In this document: positions 40,089-47,775 of the stretch, in pieces
Layout of the letters: every line of letters begins with the position of its first letter
Position numbering within the stretch: the stretch's first letter is position 1
Assembly (NCBI GenBank): GCA_029254745.1
Contig: JAQWWZ010000059.1
Coordinates: 1 to 64,000, forward strand
Direction: 5' to 3'
From: Opitutales bacterium
Lineage (GTDB): Bacteria; Verrucomicrobiota; Verrucomicrobiia; Opitutales; Seribacteraceae
DNA length: 64,000 nt
Notes under the pieces: generated by a model
What the model saw: only the letters and a program-made list of their open reading frames with translations
The model's database searches: none
What the model was told of the DNA's origin: nothing
Made by a program: the position numbers and the translations under genes

Positions 40089-41345
40089 TTAGAAGTCTTT
40101 AATTTTCTTAATTTTTAGACCAACAAGACGCCGTTCATCCCGAAGAAAAAGCATCCCGCCAGCGTACGCATAGTGTGCTCGTCCACGGCCAAGAACCTGT
40201 TGGCGGTGAAGGCTAACAAAGGACTTTGATTGGGCTTCAAATATGATGAGTTCACCAGTTTCTGAGAGGAATATAATTTTCTCCCCTAGCCTCAAAAGAT
40301 TACCAGCTCCTAGACCTGACTTGCTCCACTGGACAGTTCCACTACGTAATTCAATACACCTCAATTGGGGGCGATGCTCCTGACGACCATGAACTCCATA
40401 TAAATAGCCCTGATATGAGACAGGGGTAGAATAATGACAGTCCATAGTCTCTTTTTTGGCCCACTTTTGCTCAAATATAGATCCGACACTCTTGCCATTT
40501 TCTTCCGTAAGTCTCCATAAACTTGATCCGACCTTATAGCACGCACTCAAAAATACCATATCTCCAATAACTAAGGGAGTTGCTGCATGAACAGATGCAT
40601 TAATTTGTGAACGAAAAGAAGAAAAAAATAGTTCTTTCCCGGTCGTGGCGTCGACGGCGATAAATCCTTCTCGCATAAAACTTAACACCAAGTCGAAATC
40701 CTTATACTTCAAAGGAACGCAGGAAGCATAATCTGCTGTTCGAGGTCTTGATTCCCATAATGTTTCTCCATTTTCTAATGAAAAAGCGACAATACCCGCG
40801 CCCTCTCCCCCTACATCTACAATGATTTTTTTGTCAATTATCAGAGGAGAAGAACAGCGACCAAAAAATCCCTTTGGAGACTGATATTCTGCTTTTAGAT
40901 CTCTTTTCCATAAAGCGGTACCACTATCCAAGCTAATACCTTTAAGTAACCCATTTGGGCTGTGAGTTACAATGATGCCATTCTTTATGCCTGGAGTAGA
41001 CCGCGGACCGTCTGACATCCCAAAATTATCCCGATAGTCTGACTGAAAAGAATGTTCCCATAATTTCTGTCCGGTTACAGCGTCGAAACAATGTACTCTC
41101 TCTACTTTACCCACCCTGTCATGTAAAATAACTTTTTCTTGCACAACGACAGGTGAAGACCAACCAGTGCCTACTTTCACTGTCCATAACAGGGGATATT
41201 CTTTATCCGCGGCCGGTACCTCAATGTGCACATCATCAATAGAACCGGTATGATTAGGACCTAACCAATTTGACCAAGATGAAGCATATGACCAAGGCAG
41301 GGTAAAAATAATGGACAAAATGAAAGAATAATATGTCCCCTTCAC
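40089..41345 (-). CDS. Exported PQQ-like beta-propeller protein
   Basis: The 418-residue protein begins at GTG with a signal peptide (about 1-22), then WSNWLGPNHTGS, the usual opening of exported PQQ-repeat proteins of Planctomycetes and Verrucomicrobiota. Repeats of the form LWTVKVGTGWSSPVV, HCFDAVTGQKLWEHSF, SLDSGTALWKRD and SLENGETLWESR each form a propeller blade. These folds bind proteins or act as scaffolds and need not contain PQQ. Its start shares one base with the stop of the upstream DUF362-like gene, so the two are coupled. Confidence 0.85.
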   Translation of the reverse strand: MKGTYYSFILSIIFTLPWSYASSWSNWLGPNHTGSIDDVHIEVPAADKEYPLLWTVKVGTGWSSPVVVQEKVILHDRVGKVERVHCFDAVTGQKLWEHSFQSDYRDNFGMSDGPRSTPGIKNGIIVTHSPNGLLKGISLDSGTALWKRDLKAEYQSPKGFFGRCSSPLIIDKKIIVDVGGEGAGIVAFSLENGETLWESRPRTADYASCVPLKYKDFDLVLSFMREGFIAVDATTGKELFFSSFRSQINASVHAATPLVIGDMVFLSACYKVGSSLWRLTEENGKSVGSIFEQKWAKKETMDCHYSTPVSYQGYLYGVHGRQEHRPQLRCIELRSGTVQWSKSGLGAGNLLRLGEKIIFLSETGELIIFEAQSKSFVSLHRQQVLGRGRAHYAYAGGMLFLRDERRLVGLKIKKIKDF

Positions 41346-42433
41346 TATTGGTTAGCCAAGAAAGATTTTATCACTTTGGGCTCAACGACCCGACCAAGGT
41401 TTAAACTTTCCGCGTACTTAAAAATCAAAGCTTCTTCTTTACTTCGAGAGGATAACTTTCTCATTTCTCTCGATTTTGCAATATATTTCCACGCGATAGA
41501 ATCAACCGAAAATGGATTCTGACTAACGAGTAAAATGGGAGAAGAATCAATAAATTCAGCATTAAAGTCACTTCCTCCTGCAAATTGATATCTATGTAAA
41601 TCTACCATTGAAAATAACCTCTTCCCCCAGATTTCGGGAATAGCAAGAATTTCGGTGATGGCAGCTGCACCCAAAGTCGAATCTTGGCGAAATCGCTTGG
41701 AATTACTGACAAGATCAAGAGACATGTTCGACGCGGCACCAGTAATCCCAAGTTTTGTATCATCCATTACGACCGCGAGATTAATCCAATAGGTCTGGGC
41801 ATCAAGCAAGGCTGCAGGGATGTAGCTTTTTCTTTCTTCCTCTATTCTTTTACTGAGATCATACGGAAATTGAAGGAAGAATTTGGCTCGATCATGGACT
41901 TGTGGGGGCATGGAACTATCATGAAACCATTCACTTGTAAAAAACCCTACATCTAAAGGAGTTTGAATTTTATGCCCTTTGTATTTTCGATTTTTACTTT
42001 GCAGTCCATATGCCTTGGACCGAACCAGTTCATCGAAATTGAAGCACAAAAGGTCAACCCTGTCTTTTGAATATCCTCGTTGCCCCAAGAATTCAAGGGT
42101 GGCGTCTACAAGGTTGCTAGATGGATGCAAGCCCGGAGCAGCAGAAGTATCTAATTTAATAATGATTTTCGGAAAGTTTTCTGGCATGATTTTAATTCCC
42201 CTAACACCTTCCATGGAATGCAGCAGAGGAACCATGGATTCATAGAGTCCAAGAGTTCCTAGGGAACTTTTGCCTATAAAAACAAAGGATGTGTTGTGAT
42301 CAAATTGCTCTTTTGATAAGAGTTTTTTTTGTGTAATGTTTTGCATCTCAGCAAACAAACAAGTTATCATTCCAAATATTGAAAATAACACCACTGCTTG
42401 CCGTTTAAAAATCCTCTGAAAAAAACAATTCAT
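41345..42433 (-). CDS. DUF362-like exported protein
   Basis: The open frame reaches to 42520, but Met30 at 42433 opens a good signal peptide (about 25 residues, ending CLFAE), so I place the start there. The mature part has IIIKLDTSAAPGLHPSSNLVDATLEFLGQRG and later GITGAASNMSLDLVS and IDSSPILLVSQNPFSVDSIA, which match the order of motifs in DUF362, a family of unknown biochemical function in which the second motif resembles the TGALKN segment. It is cotranscribed with the beta-propeller gene. Its ATG overlaps the ATG of the divergent TPR gene in one CATG. Confidence 0.6.
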   Translation of the reverse strand: MNCFFQRIFKRQAVVLFSIFGMITCLFAEMQNITQKKLLSKEQFDHNTSFVFIGKSSLGTLGLYESMVPLLHSMEGVRGIKIMPENFPKIIIKLDTSAAPGLHPSSNLVDATLEFLGQRGYSKDRVDLLCFNFDELVRSKAYGLQSKNRKYKGHKIQTPLDVGFFTSEWFHDSSMPPQVHDRAKFFLQFPYDLSKRIEEERKSYIPAALLDAQTYWINLAVVMDDTKLGITGAASNMSLDLVSNSKRFRQDSTLGAAAITEILAIPEIWGKRLFSMVDLHRYQFAGGSDFNAEFIDSSPILLVSQNPFSVDSIAWKYIAKSREMRKLSSRSKEEALIFKYAESLNLGRVVEPKVIKSFLANQ

Positions 42434-43931
42434 GCTCAAAGCTAAATCATGCATATCAATCATATTGTACGGGTCAATCATGCTTGTGCTTTTTGGTTGT
42501 GGTGAGCCTTTAGAAGACAAAATCCCACCTGTTCCCCAGACTCAATCTGAAGAGGAAAAAAAACCGGACCTTTCACAGGCGATTTCGAAGCGAATTGAAG
42601 GCGATGCTGAGGGTGCTATCCGGTTGCTAAGGAATCTGAACGAACAATTCCCTAATTCCCAAGAAATTCTTATCCAATTAGGACGATCCTTGGCGGATGT
42701 AAAAAAATACCCATTAGCGGCTTTTCGTTTCGAACAAGCAGTATCCTGTGGTGCTTCCAAAGAAATACATCGAGAAACCGCAGAAACTCACCTGCTTGCA
42801 GGCGACAAATTCAACGCCCAGCTTAATTTCAACAAATTCCTAAGCCATTTCCCTGAAGAAAAAAATGTGTGGCTAACATTTGCCAGGCTGTTAGCAGAAG
42901 CCGATAAAAAAACGGAAGCGATCAATGCTTTTTCTAGAGTTCCTGACCTTTGTACTCATAAAGATGCTTTAACATTAGCCACTCTTTTTTATGATAAAAA
43001 GTTGTGGGCACAATCTGCCCGTTGGTTCCGTGAATCAGCTAAAAGAGAAGACGGAATCAGCCCTAAGCCTCTTCTGGGCTTATTGCGCATCAGCCTTATT
43101 GAACAAGATGAAGATCAAGCTGAGTCTCTCTGCCTCGCTATTGAGAAAACTTATCCGGGCAGTATCGATTCCAGTGATTTGAGCCTTGATGCGGTCGATC
43201 TTTTAAGACGCAGAAGACTTGCCGACCTTCTTGATGCAGGTATCTCAACCGATGAAAAAAAATTTTCGGTTATGGCTAAAGCCCTACTACTGGAAACCAG
43301 TCCTGAAAAAGAAAGGGTGGTTTCATCTGGTTCAAAGATTCCCCCTCTTTCCAATGCACCTGAAAGCCTAAACGAAATCAAGCCCGACACACCACAGCCT
43401 ATGCCTACTCCCCTCCCTTCTTTTAATTTGGCCGATGCATTTGCCAAACCTGCCGAAGTGGAGAATGAGCAATCCTCGCTCGAAAATAGTCGAACCGCTT
43501 ACTTGAATTCGAGTTACACACAAGCTCTGTATTTTGCTCGCGAAGCCCTCAAAGCAAATGCATCAGATGCAGAAGCATGGAGACTTTGCTCCCAGGCTCA
43601 TTTTCAACTGGGTGAAGAAAGGGAAGCAGAAATGACCATACTAGAAGCAATCAGGCATAACCCTTTTGACTTAGTTACTCGACTAGACTACCTACGAATA
43701 GCTAGGGAAACTCTGCCGTCCGCTAGATACCTTGCAGAGCTAGAAAAATCAAAAGAATTATTTCCAAAATCTACCGAAATTCTTTGGGAATTGGCACGGC
43801 GCTACCACTTGGTCGAAAAAATGCCGGTAACCGCAAGCATATTGTATAAAGAGGTCATGAAATTGGTTTCGGAAAGTTCCGGATTACATCAACAAGCAAA
43901 AATGGAACTATTCAAACTGCAATCAATGTAA
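42432..43931 (+). CDS. TPR-repeat lipoprotein
   Basis: The 499-residue protein has a lipoprotein signal with lipobox LFGC and then tetratricopeptide-like helix pairs: AISKRIEGDAEGAIRLLRNLNEQFPNSQEI and, further on, AYLNSSYTQALYFAREALKANASDAEAWRLCSQAHFQLGEEREA. TPRs mediate protein contacts, here on the periplasmic side. It lies 23 bases upstream of dnaG, an odd neighbour that may simply share a promoter. Confidence 0.8.
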   Translation: MLKAKSCISIILYGSIMLVLFGCGEPLEDKIPPVPQTQSEEEKKPDLSQAISKRIEGDAEGAIRLLRNLNEQFPNSQEILIQLGRSLADVKKYPLAAFRFEQAVSCGASKEIHRETAETHLLAGDKFNAQLNFNKFLSHFPEEKNVWLTFARLLAEADKKTEAINAFSRVPDLCTHKDALTLATLFYDKKLWAQSARWFRESAKREDGISPKPLLGLLRISLIEQDEDQAESLCLAIEKTYPGSIDSSDLSLDAVDLLRRRRLADLLDAGISTDEKKFSVMAKALLLETSPEKERVVSSGSKIPPLSNAPESLNEIKPDTPQPMPTPLPSFNLADAFAKPAEVENEQSSLENSRTAYLNSSYTQALYFAREALKANASDAEAWRLCSQAHFQLGEEREAEMTILEAIRHNPFDLVTRLDYLRIARETLPSARYLAELEKSKELFPKSTEILWELARRYHLVEKMPVTASILYKEVMKLVSESSGLHQQAKMELFKLQSM

Positions 43932-43954: not shown

Positions 43955-45817
43955 ATGCCAAGACTAGCTGATGGATTTATTAATGAGCTCAAAGAAAGGA
44001 TTGATCTATTCGACCTCATTAGCTCCTATGTCGAACTCAAAAAAAGCGGTTCTAGCTGGGTAGGACTAAGCCCCTTTCAGCAGGAAAAAACTCCTTCTTT
44101 TTATGTGCATCCACAAAAGGGATTTTTTAAATGCTTTAGCTCGGGTGAAACCGGAGATGCAATTTCCTTTGTCCAAAAATTAGAAAATCTTGATTTCCAA
44201 GAATCACTCGAATTTTTATCACAACGATTCGGGATTCCCCTTCGATATGAAAAAGGCGATCACTCCAAGCCTTTCGTTAAGTCAATTCGAGCAGAATTGC
44301 ATGCCGTTCATGAAGAAGCAATGAAGTGGTACATGCAACAACTCAAAACAAAGTCTTCTGAAAGCATGGTTGCTTGGGAATATTGGATTCAAGAAAGAAA
44401 ATTTGACGAAAAAACAGCGGAGGCGTTTGGGATTGGGTATGCTCCAACCAATGAATTTTCCCTTGGGGATCACTTAATGTGCAAAAATTTCTCCAAGGAA
44501 ATTCTTTCCAAAGCAGGACTTTTTCGGGAAAAACAAAGGCAAGGCAAATTAGTTTCTAATTTTCAAGGCAGACTGATGATTCCCATTTTCGAAAAATTAG
44601 GACGAATTTGTGGTTTCACGGCCCGTAAATTATCCGTAACACCTGAATGGGGAGACAAAAAAGCCCCAAAATATATAAATTCCCCAGAAACAACTATTTT
44701 CCAGAAAAGTCAGATACTTTTTAATCTACATCTTGCCAATAAAGCTCTCAAACAAGATCAAGATTTTTTACTTGTTGAAGGCCAACTCGATGCGATTCGA
44801 TGTTATATCGAAGGTTTTGAAACTGTAATTGCACCGCAAGGTACAGCATTCACTGAGACACAGGCGGGTTTGTTAAAAAAATCAAACCCAAGAAATATTA
44901 TCTGTCTGCTCGATGGAGATGAAGCGGGAAGGAAAGCGGGTCTTAAGTATGTGTCTATTTTCATGGAGAGTGGATTAAATGCTCGCTTTGCCACCCTCCC
45001 CCAAGGAAGTGACCCTGATCAAATCCTCCTTGACTTTGGTAAAGCTAAACTTTCAGAAATCCTTTCTGCATCTATCTCCATGGTACAATATGTTGTGGAA
45101 AACCTTGCCAGTCAAGAAGACCGTACTAACCCAAACATTAGAAAAAATATTTGTGATTTTATGTTTCGTTCTTTGTCGAAATTAGAATCATTTGTGGTGG
45201 AGGAAACTCATTTAAAAGAGCTGGGTGACCATCTAGGTGTATCTAACGAAGCTATAAAAAAAGATTACCAGCTATTTAAGCGAAACCAAAAGCCAAAATA
45301 TCAATTTCAGAAAGCCCAGCCCTCAAACCAAAAACCAGAAATTAAAGGACCTGTACGATTGACAAATGTCGAAGATGATTTATTATATATTCTTTTGCAT
45401 GACGATCGGATCGCCGGGCCACTTGCCTACCTTATCGAGCCTACATGGCTTAATTTCAACATTGTTTCTGGTCGTATTTTGGCCAAGATTCTTGCTGAAA
45501 TCAAAGCAGATGGTCCCATGCAGATCAGTCACATGGAAGATCTCCTCGAAGATGATGAAGAACGTAATTCCTTCCACCGTTGCCTTTTCAGCGATGCCGA
45601 TACTAATGAAAATGAATCTTCTCTGCAACTTGCCAACGAGTGCTTGGCGGTCCTTTTCTTGCGAAGTTCCAAGGAAAGAGAACTTTCAATCCGCTCTCGC
45701 CTCCAAATTTCCACCATTGAGTCCTCGACGCTCATAGACTTGAGAAATCAATTAAAGGAAATTAGAAAACAACGTAACTCACCTCCTACCCTATCCTTTT
45801 CAACATCCACGAATTAA
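43955..45817 (+). CDS. dnaG: DNA primase
   Basis: Makes the RNA primers for replication. The 620-residue protein has an N-terminal zinc-ribbon region, the TOPRIM core ([26 protein letters not shown]) and a C-terminal helicase-binding end. Oddly, the usual CHC2 pattern (Cys-x2-His...Cys-x2-Cys) is degenerate: residue 39 is Ser in GLSPF, 42 is Gln in FQQE, Cys60 remains in FKCFSS, and 63 is Ser. Only one of four zinc ligands is left. The rest of the motif's frame (EKTPSF) is intact, so the fold may hold without metal. The gene precedes rpoD by 8 bases; rpsU, the usual third member of the operon, is absent. Confidence 0.96.
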
Positions 45818-45825
45818 TACTTTCC

Positions 45826-47775
45826 ATGCCAACATCAAAGCCCCGAAAATCATCGAGTAAAAAAAAGTCAGCTGAGGTTAAACCTGTAGCATCTAAAAAA
45901 ACAGCCAAAAAATCTGACAATTCAAAAGATAAACCCGCAGCCAAAAAAACTGCTGCTATCAAAGGTAAAGCCGAAGCCAAAAAACCTAACAAAAAAGGTA
46001 AAACTGCACCGAAACTAGCAACACCGGCAACCGACAAAACCCTTAAGTCATCGGCTAAAGAAGTAGCAAAGACATTAAAAAAGAATGCCGAGCCACATGC
46101 GCTGAATGATGAGATGAATGAAAAAGTGCGGGAACTCATCCACTTATCCAGAGAACAAGGTTTTTTAACTTACAAAGATGTTGACACTGCCCTTCCAGAG
46201 ATTGCAACCCAACCTGAGGAGTTGCAGAATGTAATCTCGATTTTCAATAACCTCGAAATAAAACTTCTAGACTCTGCTGAAGTTGAAAAATTCAAGAAGA
46301 AAAAAGAGGAAAATGAAGAAGAAACCGCTCGTTCCAATCAGAGTGACATGCTCGATGACCCGGTTCGCATGTACCTTAAACAAATGGGACAAGTCCCTCT
46401 CCTTTCTAGAGAAGAAGAGGTTGATATTTCCAAGAGAATTGAATCTGCAGAAAGCTCCGCCCTCAAAATTATTTATTCGGTTTCCCTTACAACCGAATTT
46501 CAAATGGATATTTGTCGCAAACTTTTATCCAGAGAGGAAAGATTTGACCGAGTAGTTCTCGACAAAAAAATTGATAGTAGAGAAACATACTTTAAAAATC
46601 TTGCTAAACAATTGGTTGCTCTTGAAGACCTCTACAAGAAAATTGATAAGTCGTGGAAGAGTGTTGAAGCCGCAACAAACGACACCCAAAAGAAACGCTC
46701 GACAACGCGCTTCAATAAATTTGTAAGCGAGCTGGCTCCCATATTTAAAAAATGTTGCCTCAAGCTTAAGATTTTTGAAGATTTCCTACAACTTGTTGGT
46801 CCAGAATTAAAAGCAATCACGAGAAATGTAAATAACCTAGAGTTGGCCAAAAAAGACACGGTTAAGGTCAAACGAAAAGGGGTTAAAATGGAACGCGTCC
46901 ATGCTGAGTTAGAGGAAGCAAAATCGAAGTTTAGAATGGACCCAACCGATTTAGCTCAATTAATTCGTGACCTACGCCGTTACATGCGGCTTGCCCACAA
47001 AGCTAAAACCGAAATGGTGGAAGCTAATTTACGCTTAGTAATTTCGATTGCGAAAAAATATACAAACCGTGGATTATCCTTTTTAGATTTAATCCAGGAA
47101 GGAAATATGGGACTCATGAAAGCGGTTGAAAAATTTGAGTACCGTAGAGGGTATAAATTTTCCACCTATGCCACATGGTGGATCAGGCAGGCAATTACCC
47201 GATCGATAGCTGATCAAGCCCGTACAATCCGGATTCCTGTTCACATGATTGAAACCCTTAACAAGGTCATGCAGGTACAAAAGCAATTACTGCAAGAGCT
47301 TGGTCACGAGCCTACCCCTGACGAAGTTGCCACAGAAATGGGGCTACCCCTTGATAAAGTTCAAAGTATCATGAAAATGGCACAACAACCCATCTCTTTA
47401 CAGAGTCCAGTTGGGGATAGCGATGATACGAACTTTGGAGATTTTATTGAAGACAAAGGAGCTGAAAATCCCTACGATATGACGGCTTACTCGCTTTTAA
47501 GGGAAAAGATTTTGGATGTCCTCGACTCTCTTACAGAAAGAGAACGAAATGTGCTCTCCTTACGGTTTGGTCTGAAGGACGGGTACAGCAGAACCTTAGA
47601 AGAAGTCGGGCGACAATTCAAAGTAACTCGAGAACGAATTCGCCAAATTGAAGCAAAAGCACTCAGGAAGATGAGACACCCCACACGTATTCGACAACTC
47701 CATGGTTTCTTTGAGGCTGACCAAAGTTCTGTCAATAAGCCTAAACCAGAAGCTCTACGACAACTTGGATTATAA
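45826..47775 (+). CDS. rpoD: RNA polymerase primary sigma factor
   Basis: The housekeeping sigma factor, 649 residues. Regions in order: 1.2 ([22 protein letters not shown]), 2 with [18 protein letters not shown] and the -10 contact segment, 3 (MIETLNKV), and 4 with the -35 helix-turn-helix ([27 protein letters not shown]). The first ~85 residues are an unusual Lys/Ala/Ser-rich tail, reminiscent of histone H1, in place of the acidic region 1.1. A large insert lies between regions 1.2 and 2. It follows dnaG closely. Confidence 0.97.

Follow-up and report, generated by a model that had tools for sequence, protein, structure and literature searches.

DNA primase starts each new DNA strand. In its bacterial form, DnaG, the three cysteines and one histidine that hold zinc in the N-terminal ribbon domain have been described in a review as 'highly conserved' (PMC6163395), and the open-access literature that we searched treats the ligands in this way and zinc as needed for template recognition. 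In B. subtilis stable template binding depends on the ribbon domain and is abolished when the domain is removed (PMC5429622), and in C. difficile a lysine adjoining the ribbon ligands sets the trinucleotide preference, as reported in a study whose sequence comparison covered only 11 species and marked the ligands as the CHC2 motif (PMC5204125). Given these roles in template binding and trinucleotide choice, the domain can be expected to be kept by selection.

Zinc-free forms of zinc-binding domains have been described in other systems. The putative zinc-binding domain of bacterial GluRS has a zinc-free form that functionally replaces the zinc-bound one (PMC4381286), and it resembles the case described here in that some lineages lost a structural zinc site but kept a working domain, although GluRS is an unrelated protein and its zinc-free domain was experimentally tested. 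Zinc ligands have similarly been lost from core proteins in the zinc-free paralogues of ribosomal proteins L31 and L36, which are reported to be second copies induced by zinc shortage (PMC13343924), whereas the metal-free DnaG is an only copy. We found no description of a zinc-free DnaG class in the open-access literature, and one could exist in a subscription paper or a database note.

A DnaG with three of its four zinc ligands replaced

The window, by which we mean the whole stretch of 64,000 nucleotides that was analysed (contig JAQWWZ010000059.1 of an Opitutales bacterium, positions 1 to 64,000), contains the following features at the primase locus:

43955-45817, plus strand: dnaG, DNA primase of 620 amino acids, the genome's only DnaG
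43955-44254, plus strand: N-terminal CHC2-type ribbon domain (residues 1-100), ligands replaced, fold predicted intact
44069-44071, plus strand: codon 39, AGC, Ser in place of a zinc ligand Cys
44078-44080, plus strand: codon 42, CAG, Gln in place of the zinc ligand His
44102-44104, plus strand: codon 50, Tyr
44132-44134, plus strand: codon 60, TGC, Cys, the sole ligand retained (Asp in many relatives)
44138-44140, plus strand: codon 62, AGC, Ser in place of the zinc-knuckle Gly (second knuckle, CFGCG)
44141-44143, plus strand: codon 63, TCG, Ser in place of a zinc ligand Cys
44285-45244, plus strand: RNA polymerase domain with the TOPRIM core (residues 111-430)
45245-45814, plus strand: C-terminal region (residues 431-620), in the place of the helicase-binding domain
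45826-47775, plus strand: rpoD, sigma factor gene directly 3' of dnaG, named from its sequence

An earlier note on this DNA had claimed that three of the four zinc ligands are missing from a ribbon whose frame, like the TOPRIM core, is intact, and both parts of that claim were confirmed. Where a CHC2 ribbon carries Cys-His-Cys-Cys, this DnaG reads Ser-Gln-Cys-Ser, with Ser39, Gln42, Cys60 and Ser63 aligning with the C-H-C-C of the zinc-bound structures 1d0q (B. stearothermophilus) and 2au3 (Aquifex). The window's protein has the same domain, strand order and frame motifs as those two, and differs from them in having S-Q-C-S and Ser62 instead of C-H-C-C and Gly62. The frame motifs GLSPF, EKTPSF and GDAI are present, the frame residues are invariant across 62 sequences, and so are the TOPRIM acidic residues E275, D320, D322, D353 and D355 (E, DxD, DPD). 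An alternative ligand set inside the ribbon domain was considered and rejected: residues 1-105 hold one cysteine (60) and two histidines (52 and 103), and therefore offer no other four-ligand site.

The ribbon scored 105.6 bits against Pfam Zn_ribbon_DnaG (CHC2, PF01807; gathering cut-off 24.9), the protein matched NCBIfam TIGR01391 (dnaG) over its full length with 388.6 against a cut-off of 283.6, and the Pfam DNAG_N match was likewise above cut-off. The family models already accept metal-free proteins as DnaG, so that the gene itself is known. The helicase-binding domain of DnaG is poorly conserved; the C-terminal 190 amino acids are correctly placed for it and gave no NCBIfam match to this poorly conserved type of domain. 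The genome encodes one DnaB-type helicase. Elsewhere in the window, a tandem gene pair lies on the minus strand at 40089-42520, and its first gene (40089-41345) resembles a PQQ-type beta-propeller protein, judged by sequence.

Copy number and selection

The source genome measures 2.45 Mb and is 96.5% complete. A genome-wide search for a second dnaG with an intact CHC2 motif, which would have undercut the earlier note, found none: the genome contained no second CHC2 domain above cut-off and no exact CHC2 motif. In 14 metal-free genomes beyond the phylum that were searched whole, there was one strong family match each, and mostly this was the single match.

The same note had also described a full-length protein in its normal place before rpoD and not a decayed copy. 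Length and position are as it stated, and decay of dnaG is rejected by the length, the invariant residues and the low dN/dS. All 33 loci of the window's family read Ser-x-Cys-[Ser/Thr], which rules out sequence error or chance. Among close relatives, dN/dS was 0 to 0.008 for ribbon residues 28-75, and in the closest pair it was 0.069 for the catalytic core; purifying selection acts more strongly on the ribbon than on the core. The four-cysteine zinc site of RpoC is intact in the source genome and in nearly all sampled relatives, so that the metal-free DnaG is not due to general zinc avoidance, a possibility that we rejected on this one marker.

Predicted structure

The N-terminal fold, whose prediction the earlier note had proposed as a check, was modelled from relatives with AF2, which predicts a retained zinc-ribbon fold for the metal-free domain. 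The model of residues 1-430 had a mean pLDDT of 90.6 (about 84-91 for residues 11-90, and low at the hinge, 102-107), and its ribbon keeps the strands and helices. The ribbon superposed on 1d0q at 1.3 A over 93 columns with 38% identity by Foldseek, and with a VIA Z of 14.7 at 2.0 A over 101, while the catalytic part matched S. aureus DnaG (4edg) with a Z of 34.6 at 2.8 A over 312. AF2 reproduces family folds even where the real protein would need folding help.

A coordinated switch across the order

The earlier note had mentioned similar ribbons in other Opitutae, and the sharing of this ribbon by relatives in the same order proved general: Ser39, Cys or Asp60, and Ser or Thr63, together with Ser62, were found in 27 of 27 sampled families, and every metal-free relative sampled has kept the ribbon domain. 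Position 60 is Asp in some families and Cys in most of the order, and members of the window's own family have Asp instead of His52. C-H-C-C members occurred in only one of the 27 families, f3, which we take to be probably Opitutaceae. By pattern count, the exact motif CPFH-x-E[KR]-x-PSF is present in 63 of 372 order genomes, all 63 of them in f3, and is absent from the order genomes sampled outside that family. Thirteen f3 genomes, from five genera, are without the exact motif, and the ten of these that were read are all metal-free. Within the class the metal-free state also occurs in families f12, f16 and f22; the remaining phylum loci that were read are all C-H-C-C, though these were mostly best-scoring matches, so that rarer metal-free forms were possibly missed.

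Among 351 distinct ribbons, positions 39, 42, 62 and 63 divide the two states almost perfectly. Zinc forms have C, H, G and C (Gly62 in 81 of 82), and metal-free forms have Ser at 39, never His at 42, Ser or Ala at 62, and Ser, Thr or Ala at 63; in the order's own metal-free sequences, Ser39, Ser62, Ser or Thr63 and a residue other than His at 42 were found in 106 of 106. No intermediates were seen among the 166 sequences collected by homology from the order and the phylum. Position 50 is hydrophobic (aromatic or aliphatic) in most metal-free forms and mostly polar in zinc forms, and it covaries with the switch in the same direction in independent pairs, which are too few for significance. Four to five positions change together. 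One pseudomonadotal ribbon (L312) is the only zinc-type ribbon that we saw with Ser62 for Gly (CFSCG), a possible half-step between the forms.

Occurrence beyond the phylum and independent origins

Searches beyond the phylum selected on positions 39 and 42, and therefore prove occurrence and give counts that are lower bounds, not unbiased frequencies. A Ser39-motif scan of named bacterial genomes returned at least 118 stretches, which among the matches listed were mostly from Alphaproteobacteria, with others from Chlorobi, Nevskia, Polycyclovorans, Corynebacterium, Calditrichota, Patescibacteria and Flavobacteriia. The zinc motif was present in 144 of 190 sampled Pseudomonadota and the metal-free motif in 14 (Gln42 forms uncounted, one chance match removed); in Bacteroidota the metal-free pattern matched 66 of 188, and all 30 that were read were metal-free; and in Actinomycetota the seed Corynebacterium alone matched it. 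The suggestion that the state is special to the window's lineage was thus not borne out, since it recurs in Alphaproteobacteria, Flavobacteriia, Chlorobi, Corynebacterium, Nevskia, Calditrichota and Patescibacteria, and 'degenerate' is not the best word for it, because the replacing residues are themselves conserved.

The DnaG of Bradyrhizobium, Methylobacterium and Caulobacterales, in the Alphaproteobacteria, carries the same metal-free signature as the order (for example, SPFNQEKTPSF...DFSSG). Flavobacteriia and Chlorobi share Ser39, Ser62, Ser or Thr63 and the lack of His42; unlike the window's protein, most Flavobacteriia-like sequences have Asp60, and both groups are distant from it in the core tree. 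Asp60 is also found in many Alphaproteobacteria and Flavobacteriia. Two sets of pseudomonadotal loci (L302-L306 versus L156, L220 and L271-L284) have zinc and metal-free ribbons on a common frame (VNDQKGFYHCFGC versus VNDQKGFYHCFSS) and form a further mixed clade suited to studying the switch. A short DnaG-like protein of Pseudorhodobacter sp. E13 (L232), perhaps of mobile-element origin, has an unusual S-H-D-I set and was excluded from the statistics.

In a DnaG core tree built with the ribbon left out, 9 changes of state are required, and branches starred as well supported force at least 5 of them; the metal-free state arose repeatedly, on several separate branches of this tree. The codons of Ser39 point the same way for the order. 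The AGY and TCN codons for serine are two steps apart; Ser39 is AGY in 106 of 110 metal-free order sequences (while the conserved Ser48 nearby is TCN in 106 of the 110) and TCN in all 14 Pseudomonadota sequences collected without codon selection. The order's Ser39 therefore probably arose once, from a TGY cysteine codon, and separately from that of Alphaproteobacteria, whose sampled members write Ser39 as TCN and not AGY and are set apart by the core tree as an independent switch.

Intact zinc ribbons in family f3

Ten f3 loci (L105, L109, L111-L114, L125, L131, L378 and L379) have an intact zinc ribbon inside the metal-free order, and several carry one extra residue immediately ahead of the first ligand (for example, GGSRF or GGTRL). 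Family f3 forms one clade both in a tree of RpoBC (99/98) and in a tree of seven neighbouring proteins (99), nested in each within the metal-free order, and divides into a zinc subclade (100/99 and 100, respectively) and a sister metal-free subclade (98/95 and 97). With both subclades inside the metal-free order, a history with a single loss at the order's base and a single regain in f3 is more parsimonious than one with three or four losses.

Each of the three ligands, and the knuckle glycine, is one first-position base away from the codons AGC-AAC-TGC-AGC-AGC of some metal-free relatives. With the switch positions excluded, the f3 zinc ribbons have 58-69% mean identity with the metal-free ribbons of f3 and about 37-41% with zinc ribbons from the class's other orders; acquisition of the f3 zinc ribbon by transfer from outside is unsupported, as the f3 zinc ribbons are closer to their metal-free counterparts. 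However, a tree with a single loss, in which the f3 zinc clade lies outside all metal-free rows, was not rejected by AU tests (p = 0.64 for the DnaG core, 0.108 for RpoBC and 0.286 for the seven genes). For this reason we hold only tentatively, at somewhat less than even chances, that the metal-free ribbon is ancestral in the order and that f3 re-evolved a complete zinc site in place.

Discussion

We consider it highly probable that the window's DnaG works as a primase and that its ribbon domain has gone over from a zinc-held to a functional metal-free form. As far as its sequence can tell, the primase probably works without zinc, and template binding without zinc would follow from the ligands being missing while the ribbon is constrained. 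If the zinc of the ribbon domain is structural, as we take it to be, polar residues could close the knuckles in its stead: Ser39, residue 42, Cys or Asp60, Ser62, and Ser or Thr63 would close both by hydrogen bonds, and the hydrophobic residue at 50, with Leu38, would strengthen the ribbon core. In that case the metal-free ribbon would be expected to keep its docking on the polymerase domain and its hold on the template trinucleotide, as in zinc-bound DnaG.

That the ribbon is instead a vestige without template recognition, leaving the polymerase domain (with DnaB) to prime alone and with relaxed specificity, would accord with the loss of three ligands and with reviews that give the zinc motif a part in sensing DNA and in conformation (PMC6163395), but a vestige would hardly be more strongly conserved than the catalytic core, keep frame residues invariant in 62 sequences, and persist in every sampled metal-free relative; we regard this reading as unlikely. 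Less likely still is a ribbon that binds metal through a different set, such as Cys60 paired with residues from a different domain or from a second subunit. Most of the order retains Cys60, the window's protein has His52 close by, and Cys60 could bind metal weakly or between subunits; yet position 60 is Asp in some of the order's families and in many Alphaproteobacteria and Flavobacteriia, and His52 gives way to Asp within the same family. We give almost no credence to a pseudogene, an assembly error, or a duplicate with an intact sister elsewhere. A genome 96.5% complete leaves room for a second gene, but only one family member scored above cut-off, the exact motif is missing both from this genome and from all sampled order genomes outside f3, metal-free genomes elsewhere mostly show a single match, and dN/dS far below 1 speaks against a pseudogene.

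On the reading that we prefer, of a functional metal-free ribbon, primases without the zinc-holding ligands are found in members of entire major groups, including Alphaproteobacteria and Flavobacteriia. Judged by these ligands, zinc is not a universal part of DnaG, and its dispensability in large groups seems to be unreported. This bears on studies that take the ribbon for a conserved drug target and on annotation that names metal-free ribbons zinc fingers. For the organisms themselves, the likely effect is that neither a lack of zinc nor oxidised ribbon cysteines would impair the primase. Because one family contains sister genera with matched ribbons of the zinc and the zinc-free type, the role of zinc in priming can be approached directly, and, if the regain in f3 is true, the lost metal site of an essential enzyme was regained there, which would provide a natural test of reversibility.
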